From a virus, in IMG/VR virus record IMGVR_UViG_3300037137_000301, positions 1 through 37,416 of that record: a stretch of DNA of 37,416 bases; one strand, 5' to 3'. Below, one piece after another: positions 2,540-11,263 of the stretch. The translations under genes were made by a program, and so were the position numbers. The notes beneath the pieces were generated by a model. It was not told the origin of the DNA and did no database searches. It saw only the letters and a list, made by a program, of their open reading frames with translations. Numbering within the stretch: position 1 is the stretch's first letter; each line of letters begins with the position of its first letter.

Positions 2540-4474
2540 ATGATTTCCGAAATCCTTAAATCCTGCGGCTATCCGACCGATACCCTCGTCATAGATTTCG
2601 AAACCTATACGACAAAGGATTATCGACTTGGTAGGGGTCGCATGTCAACAGTTGAATATATCAAAGACCCGCGATTTCAAGTGTTGGGAGTTGCTATTAA
2701 GAAAAACAATGACTCGGCTACTTTTCTGGATTATGCCACATTTACGGACGAGTTAGAGGCCGGACGACATCGTTTAGAAAACGACACAACGGTAATCTGC
2801 CACAATGCCATGTTCGACTGTGGAATCCTTGCCTTTCGATATGGCATTTATCCGTACCATGTAATTGATACTCTTTCTCTCGCCCGACATGTCGATAGTC
2901 GCAATCAAAACGATCTTGCCCATCTTGCGAAGCGCCTTAAGATAGGTGAGAAGGGCGATAGTTCTTGGGCGATAGGCTTGACCTGGGAGCAAATGACGGC
3001 GGAACAACAGAGGCAAATGACTGAATACTCCTGTAATGATGCCGAACTAGAGCATCGGATATTCAGGATATTGTTGCTGAGTCTTTCTTGGCCGGACATT
3101 GAACTTCGGTTAATGCAACATACGCTCGAACTCTATACGCGCCCGCAACTGCGGATTGATCGCGATAGAGCCGATGAAATAAAGCAGTATATGGGGGCGA
3201 AGATGATGCTTGCTGCATACGACGTGTGCATGACACCCACCGAACTCCGGCAAAACAGTATTGACGGTCTATTTTTTATGACGCTGCAACAGACACTTGG
3301 AAACGAAAAAATACCCCTGAAATGCGGCAAAAAGAAGATGATTCCGGCATTGGGCAAGGATGATGAAGCGTTAAAGCGGTTGCAATCACATTCAAATCAA
3401 AAAGTTCGCGACCTAGTGAATGCCCGGCTAGCTATTAAATCCTGGCCGCTTCATATTAAGCGAGTTGAATCATTGGTCGCCCAATCGAAAGCTATGGATG
3501 GATTGTTGCCAATACCGCTTAAATATTATGGAGGACATACTGGTCGATGGAGTGGAACCGAGGGTATCAATCCGCAGAATTTTGGAACTCGCAGCAAGGA
3601 GAATTTGGTTAATCAAGTTCGCACTATTATCGTACCGCCGCCCGATCATGTGCTACTTATAACCGATGCAGCACAAATTGAAGCCCGCATTGTAAACTGG
3701 CTGGCTGGTCAGTGGAATATTCTTGATCTTTATGCGAGTGGGGCAGACCCGTACTGCAAATTAGCCGCTGCAATTATTGGCCGACCTGTAAATAAACCGG
3801 ACTCCATGCGACAATTGGGAAAATGCGCCGAGCTTGGGTGCGGATTTGGAATGGGGCCTACGAAATTTATGGCTATGGCGGCAAAGCCGCCGTATAATTT
3901 GACTGTTGCTCCGCATCAATCCGAAGTCGCAATTTACGCCTATCGACAAACTCACCCCAAGGTCGTAACTCTCTGGTATAACGTAGAACGGGGATTCAAA
4001 TATGTAGCAAAAAACCCGATAGAGAAGTTTGCTTTACCAATCGGAGTCAGTAGTCATGTTCTCTTTACTAGCCTGAACGGGGTTATTTCTGTACGATTGC
4101 CCTCTAGCCGCGTTCTCTACTACCCCAAGATCAGGATACGAGTTGAACAAAATCGAGAGGAACTCGTACAATTAAATGCTACTGATACCCGCAAATCGGT
4201 CAGACTGTGGGGGGGTTTCCTCGTGGAGAATATCGTCCAGGCGATTGCCCGCGACATCCTAGCATTGGCAATTCTAGAAACGGATAAATACGGAGCGGGA
4301 ATCGGGCAGCGAGTTGCACTAAGTGTCCATGATGAAATTGTCTCCGTTGCGCCAGAAAAGTACGCGGCAATGGCTTTAGACATACAACTTGCCGCGTTAC
4401 GACATACCCCGGAATGGGCCGAAGGTCTACCATTGAATGCAGAGGGAAAAACTGCGGAGAGGTATGAGAAATGA
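2540..4474 (+). CDS. Family A DNA polymerase with 3'-5' exonuclease domain
   Basis: 644 residues, the replicative polymerase candidate. The N-terminal DEDDy exonuclease is visible: VIDFETY (D19, E21), NAMFD in motif II, and YSCND in motif III with Y and D spaced as in the family. The polymerase domain has motif A ITDAAQIEAR (D376), motif B or O helix RQLGKCAELGCGFG (R424, K428) and motif C VHDEI (H597-D598-E599). The residue equivalent to E. coli Pol I F762 is Leu432, and the usual Tyr766 is Phe. The length is typical of phage polymerases without the 5' nuclease domain. ATG 2540 follows GGTGGTAA. It shares an ATGA overlap with the next gene. Confidence 0.96.
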   Translation: MISEILKSCGYPTDTLVIDFETYTTKDYRLGRGRMSTVEYIKDPRFQVLGVAIKKNNDSATFLDYATFTDELEAGRHRLENDTTVICHNAMFDCGILAFRYGIYPYHVIDTLSLARHVDSRNQNDLAHLAKRLKIGEKGDSSWAIGLTWEQMTAEQQRQMTEYSCNDAELEHRIFRILLLSLSWPDIELRLMQHTLELYTRPQLRIDRDRADEIKQYMGAKMMLAAYDVCMTPTELRQNSIDGLFFMTLQQTLGNEKIPLKCGKKKMIPALGKDDEALKRLQSHSNQKVRDLVNARLAIKSWPLHIKRVESLVAQSKAMDGLLPIPLKYYGGHTGRWSGTEGINPQNFGTRSKENLVNQVRTIIVPPPDHVLLITDAAQIEARIVNWLAGQWNILDLYASGADPYCKLAAAIIGRPVNKPDSMRQLGKCAELGCGFGMGPTKFMAMAAKPPYNLTVAPHQSEVAIYAYRQTHPKVVTLWYNVERGFKYVAKNPIEKFALPIGVSSHVLFTSLNGVISVRLPSSRVLYYPKIRIRVEQNREELVQLNATDTRKSVRLWGGFLVENIVQAIARDILALAILETDKYGAGIGQRVALSVHDEIVSVAPEKYAAMALDIQLAALRHTPEWAEGLPLNAEGKTAERYEK

Positions 4475-5122: not shown

Positions 5123-5574
5123 TGGACACGATTCAATGCCCGGTTTGTAGCGGTTGGTATGACGTAATCACCAGCGAAACATGCCCATATTGTGCCGAAC
5201 AAAATCGGAGTAAACAGAAACAAAAACGATCTAAAAGTGCCGAAGCCGGGGTAATACGTGAATGTCTTAAATGGATGCGGTCCCAACCACAGATCATCTA
5301 TGTCGAACGACGAACCACAGGATTTTTCGCCTTTGAGGGCGGGGGCGGAATTAGCATAGGATACAAGGGAGCGCCGGATATATGGTGTTTAATGGGGCGG
5401 GCGGAAAATATCCATGTTGAAATTGAATGCAAACGTCGGGACGGTAAAGGTAAATTATCTGTTGACCAGCAAAAATTTCAATCTTTTTGCAACGGTGCTT
5501 GTATCCCGCATTTCGTCGTAACGTCGGTAAATGATCTTAAAAATCAACTGCGAAAGGGCGGTTTTCTTACCTAA
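5122..5574 (+). CDS. VRR-NUC family nuclease with N-terminal zinc ribbon
   Basis: 150 residues. C6-x2-C9 and C21-x2-C24 form a zinc ribbon at the N-terminus. The VRR-NUC domain (PD-(D/E)XK superfamily) follows: an E-A-G-V-I-R-E-C-L helix at about 41-50, GYKGAPDIW supplying the catalytic D, HVEIECKRRDGKGKLSVDQQ supplying E-x-K and the usual K-L-S-x-x-Q helix. VRR-NUC proteins in phages are structure-specific DNA endonucleases, probably acting on replication or recombination junctions. Start coupled to the upstream stop. Confidence 0.88.
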   Translation: MDTIQCPVCSGWYDVITSETCPYCAEQNRSKQKQKRSKSAEAGVIRECLKWMRSQPQIIYVERRTTGFFAFEGGGGISIGYKGAPDIWCLMGRAENIHVEIECKRRDGKGKLSVDQQKFQSFCNGACIPHFVVTSVNDLKNQLRKGGFLT

Positions 5575-5596
5575 TGGTTCGATGGAGACAACAGCG

Positions 5597-5920
5597 ATGG
5601 ACGAAAAATACATGGCGTCACTCAATGACTCTCGTATACCGGATTCCGGGGCATTCTTTGTTCGGGGACAAGTTGAACATTGTCCTTTTTGCGGGAGTAT
5701 CAGACTTGTAATTCGACAGGCAATCCGTTTTATCTCCCCGACGTTTAGCGTGCAATGTTTGAACTGTTTGGCTACAGGTCCATGTGCGGGTATTGCCGAG
5801 CCATTCAGCGGTATTATACAAAAATGGAATTTTCGATGGCGTCGGAAAAGTTTTGCATATAGATTTTGGATGATAGCGGCCAATTACTTGCGGGAAATTT
5901 ACCAATGGATTTGTACTTGA
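5597..5920 (+). CDS. Lar-like restriction alleviation protein (zinc ribbon)
   Basis: The pattern CPFCGSIRLVI ... VQCLNCLATGP ... IIQKWNFR is the Lar family signature: CPFCGS, a second C-x2-C, G-P, then A/I-x-x-W-N-x-R. Rac-prophage Lar of E. coli protects DNA from type I restriction by modulating the modification function; the same role here is inference. ATG 5597 is preferred because GGAG (5584-5587) lies about 9 bases before it; ATG 5582 is the alternative. About 30 extra C-terminal residues, rich in aromatics, follow the conserved part. The stop overlaps the -35 box of the next promoter. Confidence 0.75.
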   Translation: MDEKYMASLNDSRIPDSGAFFVRGQVEHCPFCGSIRLVIRQAIRFISPTFSVQCLNCLATGPCAGIAEPFSGIIQKWNFRWRRKSFAYRFWMIAANYLREIYQWICT

Positions 5921-5944
5921 CATCCACCAAACCTATGGTATACT
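5917..5944 (+). promoter_or_regulatory. Near-consensus sigma-70 promoter
   Basis: TTGACA (5917-5922), a 16-bp spacer and TATACT (5939-5944). Transcription would start near 5951, only a few bases before ATG 5955, so the transcript would be almost leaderless for the 5955 gene and the AGGG at 5946-5949 would lie at or before the start point. It marks a likely transcription unit beginning with the recombination and replication genes. Confidence 0.6.
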
Positions 5945-6935: not shown

Positions 6936-7842
6936 CCCAACGTCTACGAGGAATATTCAAATGCCTGGACCAACTCCGTTACCCCCGCCGCCTCCCCCAA
7001 TAACGGCTAAGACTCATGTACCCAAACGGTTTGATGCAGTCCCCTGGACCGGTGCGGGACAAGGCGAGAAAATCATCGTTTATGGTGAGTCCGGTGAGGG
7101 GAAAACCACATTGTGTTCAATGTTGCCGGGAGCGATCTTCATCGGTCTCGACGATGGCGGTCGAAAGATTCGCAACCCCAAGACTGGTGAACCGATTAAG
7201 CATATTAACGCGATTGAGACCTTCCAAGATGTGCGCGATGCGCTTCATCAACTAGACCTATGGCCTACTGGGTCGTCTTGTGTGATTGACACCGCAACGG
7301 TCTTAGAGAATCTTGCCGAGCCGTGGATGTTCGCCAACATTCTACATGAAAAGGGTGGGCATGTCGCCCGTCTGGAAGATTACGGTTTCGGCAAGGGCTA
7401 CACACATTTGTTCGATACAATGCGGCTAATACTTCAAGACCTCGATGCTCTTGTTCGATGCGGAGTTAATGCTTGTCTGATTTGCCAGTCAATGGCGATT
7501 CGTAAAGCGAATCCTGGCGGGACTGACTATTTGTATGAAGGTCCGAAGTTGTCCCATCCGTACAGCGAAAAGACTTCGGTTCGGCTACATTTCTGCGAGT
7601 GGGCTGACCACGTTGTCAAGATCGGCCATACACAGCAAACAATTAAAGACGAAAAACGAAATGTGCGAACAAATGAAGTTATAAGGCCGGGTAAGATTTC
7701 AGGTGACGTTACCAGGGCGATTTTTGTCCATCCCGAAGCGCATTATTTCGCCAAGTCAAGGACAATAAGTGAACCAGTAATCGCATTTTCTACACCGAAC
7801 GATATTTCGCTATGGACATATTTATTTGGAGAAACTAAATGA
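6913..7842 (+). CDS. Sak4-like RecA-fold ATPase (AAA_24)
   Basis: 309 residues from ATG 6913, chosen because GGAG lies about 10 bases upstream; ATG 6898 is an alternative. Walker A is GESGEGKT (58-65), and Walker B ends in SSCVID (124-126). A downstream strand CLICQSM is in the position of the RecA sensor. A proline-rich linker (residues 18-29) precedes the domain. The family (AAA_24, Sak4) promotes single-strand annealing or strand exchange in phage recombination together with an SSB. The neighbouring nuclease and SSB-like gene support that role. Confidence 0.88.
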   Translation: MDSQEHNNPTSTRNIQMPGPTPLPPPPPPITAKTHVPKRFDAVPWTGAGQGEKIIVYGESGEGKTTLCSMLPGAIFIGLDDGGRKIRNPKTGEPIKHINAIETFQDVRDALHQLDLWPTGSSCVIDTATVLENLAEPWMFANILHEKGGHVARLEDYGFGKGYTHLFDTMRLILQDLDALVRCGVNACLICQSMAIRKANPGGTDYLYEGPKLSHPYSEKTSVRLHFCEWADHVVKIGHTQQTIKDEKRNVRTNEVIRPGKISGDVTRAIFVHPEAHYFAKSRTISEPVIAFSTPNDISLWTYLFGETK

Positions 7843-8162
7843 AACCACTCGCCGATCACGTTCTGATCCGTAAAGAACCTTGGACGAACAAAAAGAAAGG
7901 AATGATACTGCTTCCCGATAACTCTGAAATTGGGAAACAATTTGCTCGTGGAGAAGTGTTGGCGGTAGGACCGGGAGTATTTACGCATAACGGGATTCAA
8001 CTGATACCCCCTATCACTATCGGGGATCATGTTGTTTACTATACCGCCTCGGCAATTCCCATAATGGCCAGTGACGAAGAAGTCTATCTTGTTCGTGAGC
8101 CGAATATCGTAGCAATACTAGACTCCGGGGAATTCGAAGCGAGACAGAGTAGCTCTACGTAA
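7839..8162 (+). CDS. GroES-like co-chaperonin (Cpn10)
   Basis: 107 residues, start overlapping the Sak4 stop (ATGA). It aligns by eye along the whole GroES fold: MKPLADHVLIRKE at the N-terminus, a mobile-loop region KKKGMILLPDNSE, ARGEVLAVGPG, IGDHVVYYTAS, and the end DEEVYLVREPNIVAILD. Like phage T4 gp31, it would replace host GroES on host GroEL so that a phage protein, often the capsid protein, fits the folding cage. No GroEL is encoded in the window. Unusually, it lies among recombination genes and not beside the capsid gene. Confidence 0.92.
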   Translation: MKPLADHVLIRKEPWTNKKKGMILLPDNSEIGKQFARGEVLAVGPGVFTHNGIQLIPPITIGDHVVYYTASAIPIMASDEEVYLVREPNIVAILDSGEFEARQSSST

Positions 8163-8180
8163 GGCGTGTCAGGAGATAAA

Positions 8181-8930
8181 ATGATGAATCTTGTAGATCG
8201 TGACGGAATTTTTAAAGGTCGCGTGTTGGACCACACTGTCGGTAAAACAAAAAATGGGTTTCCACAACTTAACATTCGCTTGAAGGCTACTGAGTTCTTT
8301 GACCCGACTCAGAGTGAGTGGGTTTCATGGGAGGAATATGGGCAAGAAATTATCGGCTATGCTGTTCTTGCCAATGACGCGGGCAAACTATTCAAACATG
8401 ACCAGATTGTTGAAGCGTTCGGCTGGAATGGTCTGAGCTATGCCGGTCTGGCGGTTCAAAACTTGTCTACTGTCGCCTGTCAGTTTCAGGTTGAATGGAA
8501 CGAATACAACGGAGTGAAAAGCCTCCAAGTTACAAATTTCGGCAAAGTTGACGGCTCTGTTCTTGGTGGGCTACGCGGAGCAACGCCAGCGGAATTAGAA
8601 GATTTAGACCGTAAGTTTCTGGGAAAAACAATAGTACCGGCGACGCCAAAGACCGCACCGAAACCGCCGAATCGTCCTACTGTGGAAACCACCACGATCA
8701 AGAAGCCTAAGATGGTTGCTGTTCCGGCTAAGCCAAGATGTACCAAGATCGACGCTTGGAAGTCAGTCAATGATCTTCGTTTGACCGATGAATGCGACGA
8801 TGCCGCGCTACGAGCCGCATGGACGAAGGCTATTGCGGAAATCGGTGAAGATGAAACCGCGTTTACTCCTGAACAATGGGAACAAGTTCGAAATAAAACA
8901 TTGGACCAGATCGCGCATCTGCCGTTCTAG
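8181..8930 (+). CDS. Probable single-stranded DNA-binding protein (DUF669-like)
   Basis: About 250 residues. AGGAG at 8171-8175 serves ATG 8181 or, with better spacing, ATG 8184. Residues 1-140 look like a beta-rich domain (VDRDGIFKGRVLDHTVGKTK, NGFPQLNIRLKATEFFD, ... LQVTNFGKV). A proline-lysine-rich linker follows, then a C-terminal helical domain with acidic stretches ending in HLPF. Genes in this position after Sak4 usually encode the phage SSB partner; this one resembles the DUF669 type. The assignment rests on position and general character, not on a catalytic motif. Confidence 0.6.
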   Translation: MMNLVDRDGIFKGRVLDHTVGKTKNGFPQLNIRLKATEFFDPTQSEWVSWEEYGQEIIGYAVLANDAGKLFKHDQIVEAFGWNGLSYAGLAVQNLSTVACQFQVEWNEYNGVKSLQVTNFGKVDGSVLGGLRGATPAELEDLDRKFLGKTIVPATPKTAPKPPNRPTVETTTIKKPKMVAVPAKPRCTKIDAWKSVNDLRLTDECDDAALRAAWTKAIAEIGEDETAFTPEQWEQVRNKTLDQIAHLPF

Positions 8931-8963
8931 CGACGAATATCGTATTCTATCAAGCATCGTCGG

Positions 8964-8994
8964 GTCGCCCCCGTGCGGGGGTGCGGATTGAAAC
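8964..8994 (+). CRISPR. Solitary type I-C-like CRISPR repeat; candidate RNA anti-CRISPR (Racr)
   Basis: 31 bases with every landmark of a type I-C repeat: GTCGC at the 5' end, a C5 stem (8968-8972), a GTGC loop (8973-8976), a G5 stem (8977-8981) extended by G-U and C-G pairs, and GGATTGAAAC (8985-8994) as the 3' handle. Against the consensus of that repeat class as I remember it, it lacks one C and differs in the 3-base segment before GGATTGAAAC. No second copy, no spacer array, no leader and no cas genes are present. In phages, lone repeats of this kind are known to give RNAs that imitate crRNA and trap Cas5/Cas6 and Cas7 subunits. Confidence 0.8.
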
Positions 8995-11263
8995 TATAGT
9001 GACAGAGTTCGCCGACCGACATGAAATATACCGAACAAATATAACCCCTGAGATGGTTGCAACCCTAGCCGAGCAACTAGGGGTAAGCCCAAAAGCGTTG
9101 TATGCACTTGACGCCGGATATAATGCAGAGACAAATGCCTGGATTTTTCCCGAACGAGACGCTAGTGGGAATATTATCGGTCTGCTGCAACGCTTTTGGG
9201 ATGGTAAAAAGACGTGCATTAGCGGCTCTAAACGCGGGTTAGCGTTTGTTCCGGTAGCGGTATCAGAGGGGTATGACCCGTCGCGTCAGAAATGGCTGCG
9301 GGTCAATGAGGACAATCTTTGCCCAATATGTCAAAAACCCGATTGGTGTTGCTTAGACGGAAGTTCGGAAACGCCGCGATTTGTACTATGTATGCGAACT
9401 GCCCAAGGTGCGGTACATACGTGCCTGTCGGGCGGTTATATACACGAGATAGTTTCCGGTTCCTTTCATCCCATGAAGAAATTCCGCTCGCCGCTCGCCA
9501 CTACGGACTTGCCTGTTCTAATTGTGGAGGGGCATACTGACGCGGCTGCCGCCTACGATCTTGGTTTTGTGGCTGTTGGTCGCCCATCCGCCGAGGGTGG
9601 AATGTCGATGCTGGCTGAACTAATGCAAGGCGTTAGTTCAGTCATTATCATAGGAGAAAACGATTCCGGGGCGGGCAAAAGGGGCATGGAACAAACCTTC
9701 GATCTGTTGAAACCCGTTGTCAAAACTATCGTTAAACTGCTGCCACCGGATGGGACTAAAGATTTTCGCCAATGGGTCCGACAGGGACTTACTCAGGAAC
9801 AGTTGCTACGGTTCGTACAACTTAAAGGCGATCAAACAAGTACCAGTATAATTCTTGCCAGTGTCGCCCCTCTGGAACTTGCCCGTATATGGCTTGACGC
9901 GACGTATCGGCAAGGTGAGATTTACACGCTCAAGTATTTGCATGGAGACTGGTTTAGTTTCACCGGACAGTATTACGAGGAAATTGATAAAATACTTCTA
10001 CGGAAATCTTTGTACAATTATTTTGGAGATAAAAAGTACAAAAAACTCAAGGCTGGCGGGTTTGACATAACAGACTACGAGCCAACCAAATTTAAGTTGG
10101 ATCAAATCCTTGACGCTGCATTGGCATTTTGTACCGCCGCAGCATCAGATGTACCATGTTGGCTAACGAATCAAAATCAACGTCCTGATCCAACGCGAAT
10201 CTTGGTTTTTCCCAATGGAATGCTAGATATAGAAAAATGTATGTGCGGCGATTTTTCGCTATCCCCGCTTACACCGGAATTTTTTACCTTGGCCGGATAC
10301 CCCTACGAATTCGATCTGTCAGCCACCTGCCCCGAATGGAAGAAATTCTTATCCGGGATATTTTCGGATGATGATTCAAAGAAAATTCTGTTGCAGGAGT
10401 GGTTTGGATATAATCTGATTCCTGACAACTCCTATGAGAAGTTTATGATGCTGCTCGGTCCTCCGAGAGCGGGTAAAGGAACAATTTTGGAGGTTCTTGC
10501 CCACATCCTCGGAGAAAAACAAATTGTTGCGACCACATTCCGCGATTATACTCGCCGATTTGGTCTGTATCCGTTTATTGGAAAACTATCTGCTTTGATC
10601 GGAGATGTTTCGGTTGGATTAAATTACGACGCGACAGAGGCATTAAATGTATTGAAGCGCATAACCGGCAATGATGTAGTAACAATTGAGCAGAAAGGCC
10701 AAGACATAACCCAAACGTGCATCCATCTAAATACGCGATTTACGATGGCCGCGAATACAATGCCGAGATTACCCGACTTTGTTCGGGCAATCGAGTCGAG
10801 AATCTTAACTATTCAATTTCTTTTGACGTTTGCGGGTCGGGAAGATTGCACGCTTAAGGATCGGTTAAAGACCGAAGCATCGGGTATTCTCTTGTGGGCT
10901 TTGGACGGGTTAAAACGGTTGAGGATAAACCGGTTATTCACACTTCCGGCCAAACATAATCAAATATTAGTGCGGATACGCAGCGAACTCACGCCATTTG
11001 CGGAGTTTGTAGACGACTGCTGCGATCTTGGATGCGGAGAATCCTTCTTCGTCCCGCAAGGACGATTGTACGAATGCTGGAAAGTGTGGGCGAGCAAAAA
11101 TGGCGAATTAGGTCATTCCGTTAGATGGTTGGTACGAGTCCTAATTTCGCTCTATCCCACATGCGGAGTTGCCCGCCACAATTTTGCCGACGGCAGCAGG
11201 CTCAAAGTGTTTACCGGCATTAAACTGCAACAACACGCCGCCTTAGAATTCGGCGGTGGATAG
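8981..11263 (+). CDS. Phage primase-helicase: zinc motif, TOPRIM domain, SF3 (D5-like) helicase
   Basis: 760 residues from GTG 8981; GTG 8999 is the main alternative. Either start lies in or just after the CRISPR-like repeat and neither has a clear ribosome binding site. Zinc-binding CPICQKPDWC (C114, C117, C123) with a further C137 precedes a TOPRIM domain: VEGHTD (E183, D187), GENDSG (D228) and TKDFRQW (D261). The C-terminal superfamily 3 helicase has Walker A GPPRAGKGT (493-501), then LSALIGDVS and the arginine-containing TRFTMAANTMPRLPDFVRAI, as in P4/D5-type primase-helicases. It would unwind the fork and lay primers for the family A polymerase. Confidence 0.92.
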   Translation: MRIETIVTEFADRHEIYRTNITPEMVATLAEQLGVSPKALYALDAGYNAETNAWIFPERDASGNIIGLLQRFWDGKKTCISGSKRGLAFVPVAVSEGYDPSRQKWLRVNEDNLCPICQKPDWCCLDGSSETPRFVLCMRTAQGAVHTCLSGGYIHEIVSGSFHPMKKFRSPLATTDLPVLIVEGHTDAAAAYDLGFVAVGRPSAEGGMSMLAELMQGVSSVIIIGENDSGAGKRGMEQTFDLLKPVVKTIVKLLPPDGTKDFRQWVRQGLTQEQLLRFVQLKGDQTSTSIILASVAPLELARIWLDATYRQGEIYTLKYLHGDWFSFTGQYYEEIDKILLRKSLYNYFGDKKYKKLKAGGFDITDYEPTKFKLDQILDAALAFCTAAASDVPCWLTNQNQRPDPTRILVFPNGMLDIEKCMCGDFSLSPLTPEFFTLAGYPYEFDLSATCPEWKKFLSGIFSDDDSKKILLQEWFGYNLIPDNSYEKFMMLLGPPRAGKGTILEVLAHILGEKQIVATTFRDYTRRFGLYPFIGKLSALIGDVSVGLNYDATEALNVLKRITGNDVVTIEQKGQDITQTCIHLNTRFTMAANTMPRLPDFVRAIESRILTIQFLLTFAGREDCTLKDRLKTEASGILLWALDGLKRLRINRLFTLPAKHNQILVRIRSELTPFAEFVDDCCDLGCGESFFVPQGRLYECWKVWASKNGELGHSVRWLVRVLISLYPTCGVARHNFADGSRLKVFTGIKLQQHAALEFGGG

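Follow-up and report, generated by a model that had tools for sequence, protein, structure and literature searches.

A solitary type I-C CRISPR repeat in a phage replication operon: a candidate RNA anti-CRISPR

The repeat and its place in the operon

The window, by which we mean the whole 37,416-nt stretch of DNA analysed here (one virus record), carries genes on the + strand over ~0-15.6 kb, among them those of DNA polymerase A, a PD-(D/E)XK nuclease, an AAA ATPase, Cpn10, a 254-aa protein, a DNA primase and a dATP/dGTP diphosphohydrolase-N/DUF4406 protein, and genes on the - strand over 15.7-37.4 kb, which include those of the large terminase and an SU10-like portal. The 31-nt element under study, GTCGCCCCCGTGCGGGGGTGCGGATTGAAAC, lies on the + strand at 8964-8994 (Table 1). 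A preliminary description of this DNA had spoken of a sense repeat within a phage replication operon, and the label is right because the neighbours are the polymerase, nuclease, ATPase, Cpn10 and primase genes just named. The open reading frame upstream ends with its stop at 8930 and homology to primases begins at F4-A5 of the frame that starts with the GTG at 8999, such that the element falls within a 68-nt intergenic gap (8931-8998); an alternative in-frame GTG at 8981 would place the final 14 nt of the repeat inside the primase gene. No + strand promoter was called between 5944 and 9964, and no known acr gene was found beside the repeat among the window proteins scanned.

Table 1. Features of the locus, in window coordinates unless a related phage is named.
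Feature	Coordinates	Strand	Basis
Solitary type I-C CRISPR repeat (SRU), 31 nt	8964..8994	+	sequence, fold, chance estimate; 30/32 identical to Magnetococcales I-C array repeat
Stem 5' arm, CGCCCCC	8966..8972	+	sequence; RNAfold fold
Stem 3' arm, GGGGGTG, one G-U pair; predicted Cas5c cut after 8983	8977..8983	+	RNAfold; cut inferred from the 11-nt rule (PMC3727216)
11-nt 5' handle, CGGATTGAAAC, same as in Magnetococcales I-C repeats	8984..8994	+	comparison with array repeats
Remaining 33 nt of the gap, 5' of the repeat; weak -10-like TATTCT at 8943-8948, no good -35	8931..8963	+	sequence
Upstream gene, 254 aa, at the same place in relatives; sub-threshold RecJ OB match	8166..8930	+	comparison with relatives
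DNA primase/helicase, GTG start 4 nt past the repeat	8999..11263	+	protein homology
Nearest good sigma-70-like promoter upstream, TTGACA-16-TATACT, TG extension	5917..5944	+	consensus match only
Lar-like restriction-alleviation protein, weak match; possible second counter-defence gene of the early operon	5531..5920	+	PHROG 599, 28.6 bits; Pfam 24.3 bits, below cut-off
Stem and U-run, L209	3740-3869
Stem and U-run, L211	3795-3920
Stem and U-run, L225	2254-2365
Stem and U-run, L219	3670-3752
Stem and U-run, L220	2934-3040
Stem and U-run, also in L213, L214, L223 and L224

Two further features of the window deserve mention in their own right. The Cpn10 (GroES-like) gene at 7839-8162 has a counterpart at the same place in a relative, L093, and the left end of the record carries 69-bp tandem direct repeats (3-163; two copies that are 94% alike, plus a third, partial one). 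The same phage was also recovered from another metagenome (L078, IMGVR_UViG_3300036761_000330; 99.9% identical over 14.9 kb) as a fragment that does not cover the repeat site and extends ~1 kb beyond the right end of the window.

The element reads GT-CGCCCCC-GTGC-GGGGGTG-CGGATTGAAAC, in which a 7-bp stem with one G-U pair closes the 4-nt loop GTGC, and its predicted fold is the stem-loop with an 11-nt 3' tail that a type I-C repeat requires. RNAfold gives the hairpin -14.3 kcal/mol, as compared with -15.1 for a canonical I-C repeat. The three I-C parts previously pointed out are thus all present and in order, although the hairpin, which had been described as C5/G5, is in fact the longer stem just given. 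The handle is not the one commonest among I-C repeats, TGGATTGAAAC, but equals that of real I-C arrays. Under a first-order model of the window sequence, GTCGC followed by GGATTGAAAC at any of eight spacings on either strand is expected 1.1e-3 times by chance in the window, and demanding an in-register stem of at least 7 bp as well lowers this expectation to ~2e-7.

The repeat also stands alone. An exact GGATTGAAAC occurs once in the window, neither 100-nt flank holds a second repeat, full or partial (the best local alignment has ~60% identity), and no cas gene was found among the window proteins scanned, in keeping with the earlier statement that the window contains no further repeat, spacer array or cas gene. 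An Rfam search of the window gave no match, and the exact 31-mer had none in viral_contigs or genome_contigs. In SRUFinder, a solitary repeat unit (SRU) must match a known CRISPR repeat with 90% or more identity and coverage, score at least 41.1 bits, lie between genes and have no full or partial repeat within 100 bp (PMC10651486). The element at 8964-8994 falls under this definition because it shows 93.75% identity over 32 columns and 46.4 bits against the repeat of one bacterial genome, G045 (with our own blastn settings, not the SRUFinder program), lies outside genes and has no neighbouring repeat within 100 bp; a CRISPR mini-array, which takes at least two repeats and a spacer, is not present. 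The element is a complete type I-C repeat.

Matching arrays and other solitary repeats

A scan of a species-genome collection for GTCGC...GTGCGGATTGAAAC returned 29 loci. Among them, two metagenome-assembled genomes of Magnetococcales have large arrays with the consensus GTCGCCCCCCGTGCGGGGGCGCGGATTGAAAC, and in each of them one array copy would match the phage copy but for one C in the loop. Arrays within 3 mismatches of this consensus occur in 10 of 48 Magnetococcales genomes, and they are of type I-C because in G045 76 copies of exactly GTCGCCCCCCGTGCGGGGGCGCGGATTGAAAC adjoin cas3, cas5c, cas8c/Csd1, cas7c/Csd2, cas4 and cas1c. The phage repeat therefore matches repeats of arrays linked to cas5c, cas8c and cas7c, and the existence of I-C arrays with a repeat only a few bases away, which had been named as a check, is borne out. 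The array repeats resemble the phage copy in the handle, which is identical, in the stem and in 30 of 32 positions, and the two differences (a loop one base shorter and a C-to-T change that gives the G-U pair) both keep the structure. In contrast, the arrays possess spacers and cas genes, whereas the phage has one repeat copy and neither.

Of the matches listed between 15.7 kb of phage DNA and the 48 Magnetococcales genomes, all fell on the repeat; among 398 genomes sampled evenly across the phylum, matches at E <= 1e-6 were confined to five Magnetococcales and one other genome. Judged by these comparisons, Magnetococcales arrays are the type that the phage copy mimics best among the genomes compared, which does not show that they belong to its host. 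No spacer in two overlapping sets of 503 and 770 matched the phage (best 15 nt), and relatives of its TerL were not found in the 48 Magnetococcales genomes. Two candidates were rejected. The 33 nt upstream of the repeat can be aligned with a spacer of G045 (81% across the stretch), as if a spacer had been captured together with the repeat, but 29 of 200 shuffled queries did as well; and locus L002 fits the search pattern, but its repeat-like stretch lacks an in-register stem and is a chance match.

Pattern scans further uncovered at least 83 solitary viral I-C repeats with an in-register stem, the window's own included, 49 of them intergenic by crude longest-ORF calls. Where both neighbours are known in this sample, 21 repeats run in the direction of both and 7 against both (p=0.013); these counts come from a sample with rough ORF calls and a few duplicated contigs. 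Two 31-nt repeats, in L050 and L045, are identical to the phage repeat at 29/31 positions and lie in unrelated phage contexts, the neighbour gene in L050 being a terminase. Another viral solitary I-C repeat, L043 3927-3957, has a TATAAT box a short way upstream and an RBS with ATG downstream, and on this arrangement it appears to be a strong, separate candidate for an RNA anti-CRISPR (Racr). A candidate plasmid SRU, GTCGCCCTCCGTGCGGGGGCGTGGATTGAAAC, was seen on the mobilizable Azospirillum oryzae plasmid NZ_CP054618.1 (L004 4001-4032), without a further copy anywhere in the 8-kb locus.

The pre-primase gap in related phages

A query with the single primase sequence returned no relatives; L093 was found via the AAA protein, and an alignment of the two primases (A1) then reached 58 loci, of which 23 (L204-L226) keep the order AAA protein, 254-aa protein, primase as far as their contigs reach. 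L220 is the same record as L093 and a few others of the 23 are near-duplicates. The I-C repeat is absent from the gap and from the records of all 23, the sole match to the regular expression (G061) being a 27-nt stretch. Because no relative's record carries an I-C repeat, the repeat is specific to the phage under study among the phages compared. In five relatives (L207, L208, L217, L221 and L226) the gap measures ~0-16 nt. In three lineages DNA-modification genes fill it: a Mom gene in L093/L220 (135 bits; L093 8534-9139), Mom (75.9 bits) together with a tRNA-Ile in L205/L206 (L205 3270-4004), and a C5-cytosine methylase with an MT-A70 methylase in L225 (2349-3992); the remaining gaps hold small ORFs or structured stretches. 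The same DNA is thus not found in relatives merely as coding sequence, which had been named as a refutation; their gaps lack the repeat and several carry anti-restriction genes, and the pre-primase gap, as read from these gene contents, is an accessory slot that takes anti-defence cargo in this phage lineage.

The absence of the repeat from all 23 syntenic relatives implies that it is recent or mobile, and this, like the mere two changes that separate it from a real array repeat, is what one would expect of a relic gained recently by recombination with a host I-C array and as yet devoid of function. We consider this unlikely. The insertion is clean between stop and start, with neither gene disturbed, both changes preserve the hairpin, the same slot carries anti-restriction genes in relatives, solitary viral I-C repeats are numerous, and capture of a spacer along with the repeat found no support in the shuffled queries.

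Many relatives have a stem, mostly GC-rich, just 5' of the primase or cargo start; its loop varies in length from tens to ~110 nt, and a U-run comes after the stem (Table 1). Rfam gives no match for these stems, and they are possibly attenuators or an undescribed phage RNA. A hairpin before the primase is therefore unsurprising in itself, and the phage repeat could perceivably be a cis-acting RNA element of the primase mRNA (a stability, attenuation or translation hairpin) that looks CRISPR-like by convergence. This is, however, improbable. Most of the relatives' stems have long loops and U-runs, whereas the phage hairpin is compact and without a U-run; a hairpin role leaves GTCGC and the unpaired GGATTGAAAC unexplained, a combination expected 1.1e-3 times per window even if the stem is disregarded; and in RNA folding, cutting off the hairpin leaves the accessibility of the primase start codon unchanged (0.52 with the hairpin, 0.55 without).

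Two tRNA-like stretches were also seen in these phages: L205 ~3140-3269, a second one in that record, with the T-arm GCGGGTTCGACTCCCGC, an acceptor-like CGCCCA..TGGGCG and a long insertion, which ARAGORN does not call, and a similar uncalled one at L216 ~3750-3835.

A probable RNA decoy and its relation to known systems

We propose that the element is probably a solitary type I-C repeat acting as an RNA anti-CRISPR, present in sense in the early replication mRNA, recognised and cut by Cas5c, with products that compete with crRNAs. Candidacy as an RNA anti-CRISPR, as put forward earlier, now draws support from I-C arrays two changes away, from the solitude and extragenic site of the repeat, from the relatives' gaps and from the lean of other solitary viral I-C repeats towards the direction of their neighbours, and it has a precedent in RacrIC1 (PMC10651486). 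Counting against it are the negative results given above: no dedicated promoter called, no acr gene alongside, no match to the phage in the two spacer sets and no TerL relative in the 48 Magnetococcales genomes. We infer its transcription, its recognition by Cas5c, the sequestration of Cas subunits and the benefit to the phage as follows. Early mRNA from the promoter-like sequence at 5917-5944, or from further upstream, would carry the repeat hairpin, which Cas5c of a type I-C cell would recognise and cut after the stem (8983/8984), a position predicted from the rule that Cas5c cleavage of hairpin repeats falls 11 nt 5' of the spacer (PMC3727216). Of the two RNAs from this cut, the upstream one would have the hairpin at its end, and the downstream one would open with the correct 11-nt handle and run on into the primase message. 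Both would compete with true crRNAs for Cas5c and then for Cas7c/Cas8c, giving rise to complexes without a useful guide; either product alone could occupy Cas5c and Cas7c. In other type I systems Cascade assembly starts from the handle; should this also hold for type I-C, whole Cascades of no use to the cell could form on the downstream product. In array self-protection, a site flanked by repeat rather than by a PAM is not targeted. The site that the downstream "guide" matches has the repeat (AAC) at its flank and not a TTC-type I-C PAM, and the phage should therefore be safe from its own guide.

In the full form of this idea, which we regard as doubtful, the repeat, placed directly before an essential primase gene, would make Cas5c convert the primase mRNA of the phage into decoy guides that bear a handle and load whole I-C Cascades with PAM-less phage sequence. 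The cut would also mature the 5' end of the primase message and would thus link replication to whether the immune system is present. A role as sensor or riboswitch finds no support, because the folding described above shows no change of primase-start access on cutting.

The sense orientation of the repeat would yield a handle-bearing RNA also if the locus were a one-repeat mini-array, from which Cas5c made a working crRNA guided by the following phage sequence against related phages (superinfection exclusion). Viral mini-arrays aimed at rival viruses are known, for example in the archaeal viruses SPV1 and SPV2 (PMC11656645), and the phage locus is like them in that a virus carries a host-type repeat. 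Unlike them, it has neither a second repeat within 100 nt nor a spacer, and the stretch that would serve as guide belongs to the primase coding sequence, in which relatives have diverged strongly (the closest share 33-55% protein identity); we therefore give this possibility very little credence. The least probable reading casts the repeat as an integration site in the DNA, used at CRISPR repeats either by the phage or by new spacers, as has been proposed for some viral repeats (PMC10651486), given that no integrase was found among the window proteins scanned and that the repeat lies inside an operon and not at a genome end.

The RNA-decoy reading makes the phage repeat a new example of a known trick and not a new kind of system, and the contig may already figure in published lists of candidate Racrs (PMC10651486). 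What it adds is a well-supported I-C Racr candidate in a replication operon, away from any neighbouring acr gene. Moreover, in the pre-primase slot of this lineage a candidate RNA decoy and DNA-modification genes appear to alternate, and comparison of this slot is therefore a cheap search for new counter-defence cargo.

RacrIC1, a type I-C solitary repeat downstream of AcrIC5 in a Bifidobacterium prophage, is made on a bicistronic RNA and inhibits an I-C system (PMC10651486). The phage repeat resembles it as a single I-C repeat in sense orientation, in a small intergenic gap and presumably co-transcribed with a neighbour gene, but is itself only a candidate, of another variant (handle CGGATTGAAAC), with replication genes and no acr gene adjoining. 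Among prophage SRUs in CRISPR-bearing hosts, 83% have a matching subtype in the host (PMC10651486). RacrIF1 of a Thiocystis prophage, which forms an aberrant Cas6f-Cas7f complex on an RNA without 5' handle (PMC10651486), is likewise a solitary repeat mimic outside the genes of a phage genome; however, it is of type I-F, depends on Cas6f and has a strong promoter of its own, whereas the phage repeat is of type I-C with no dedicated promoter called. Finally, the RacrIF1 product lacks the 5' handle, whereas the predicted I-C cut would also release a handle-bearing RNA, and as Cas5c is in type I-C both the nuclease and the handle-binding subunit, this downstream, handle-bearing half may be the part of the transcript that inhibits.
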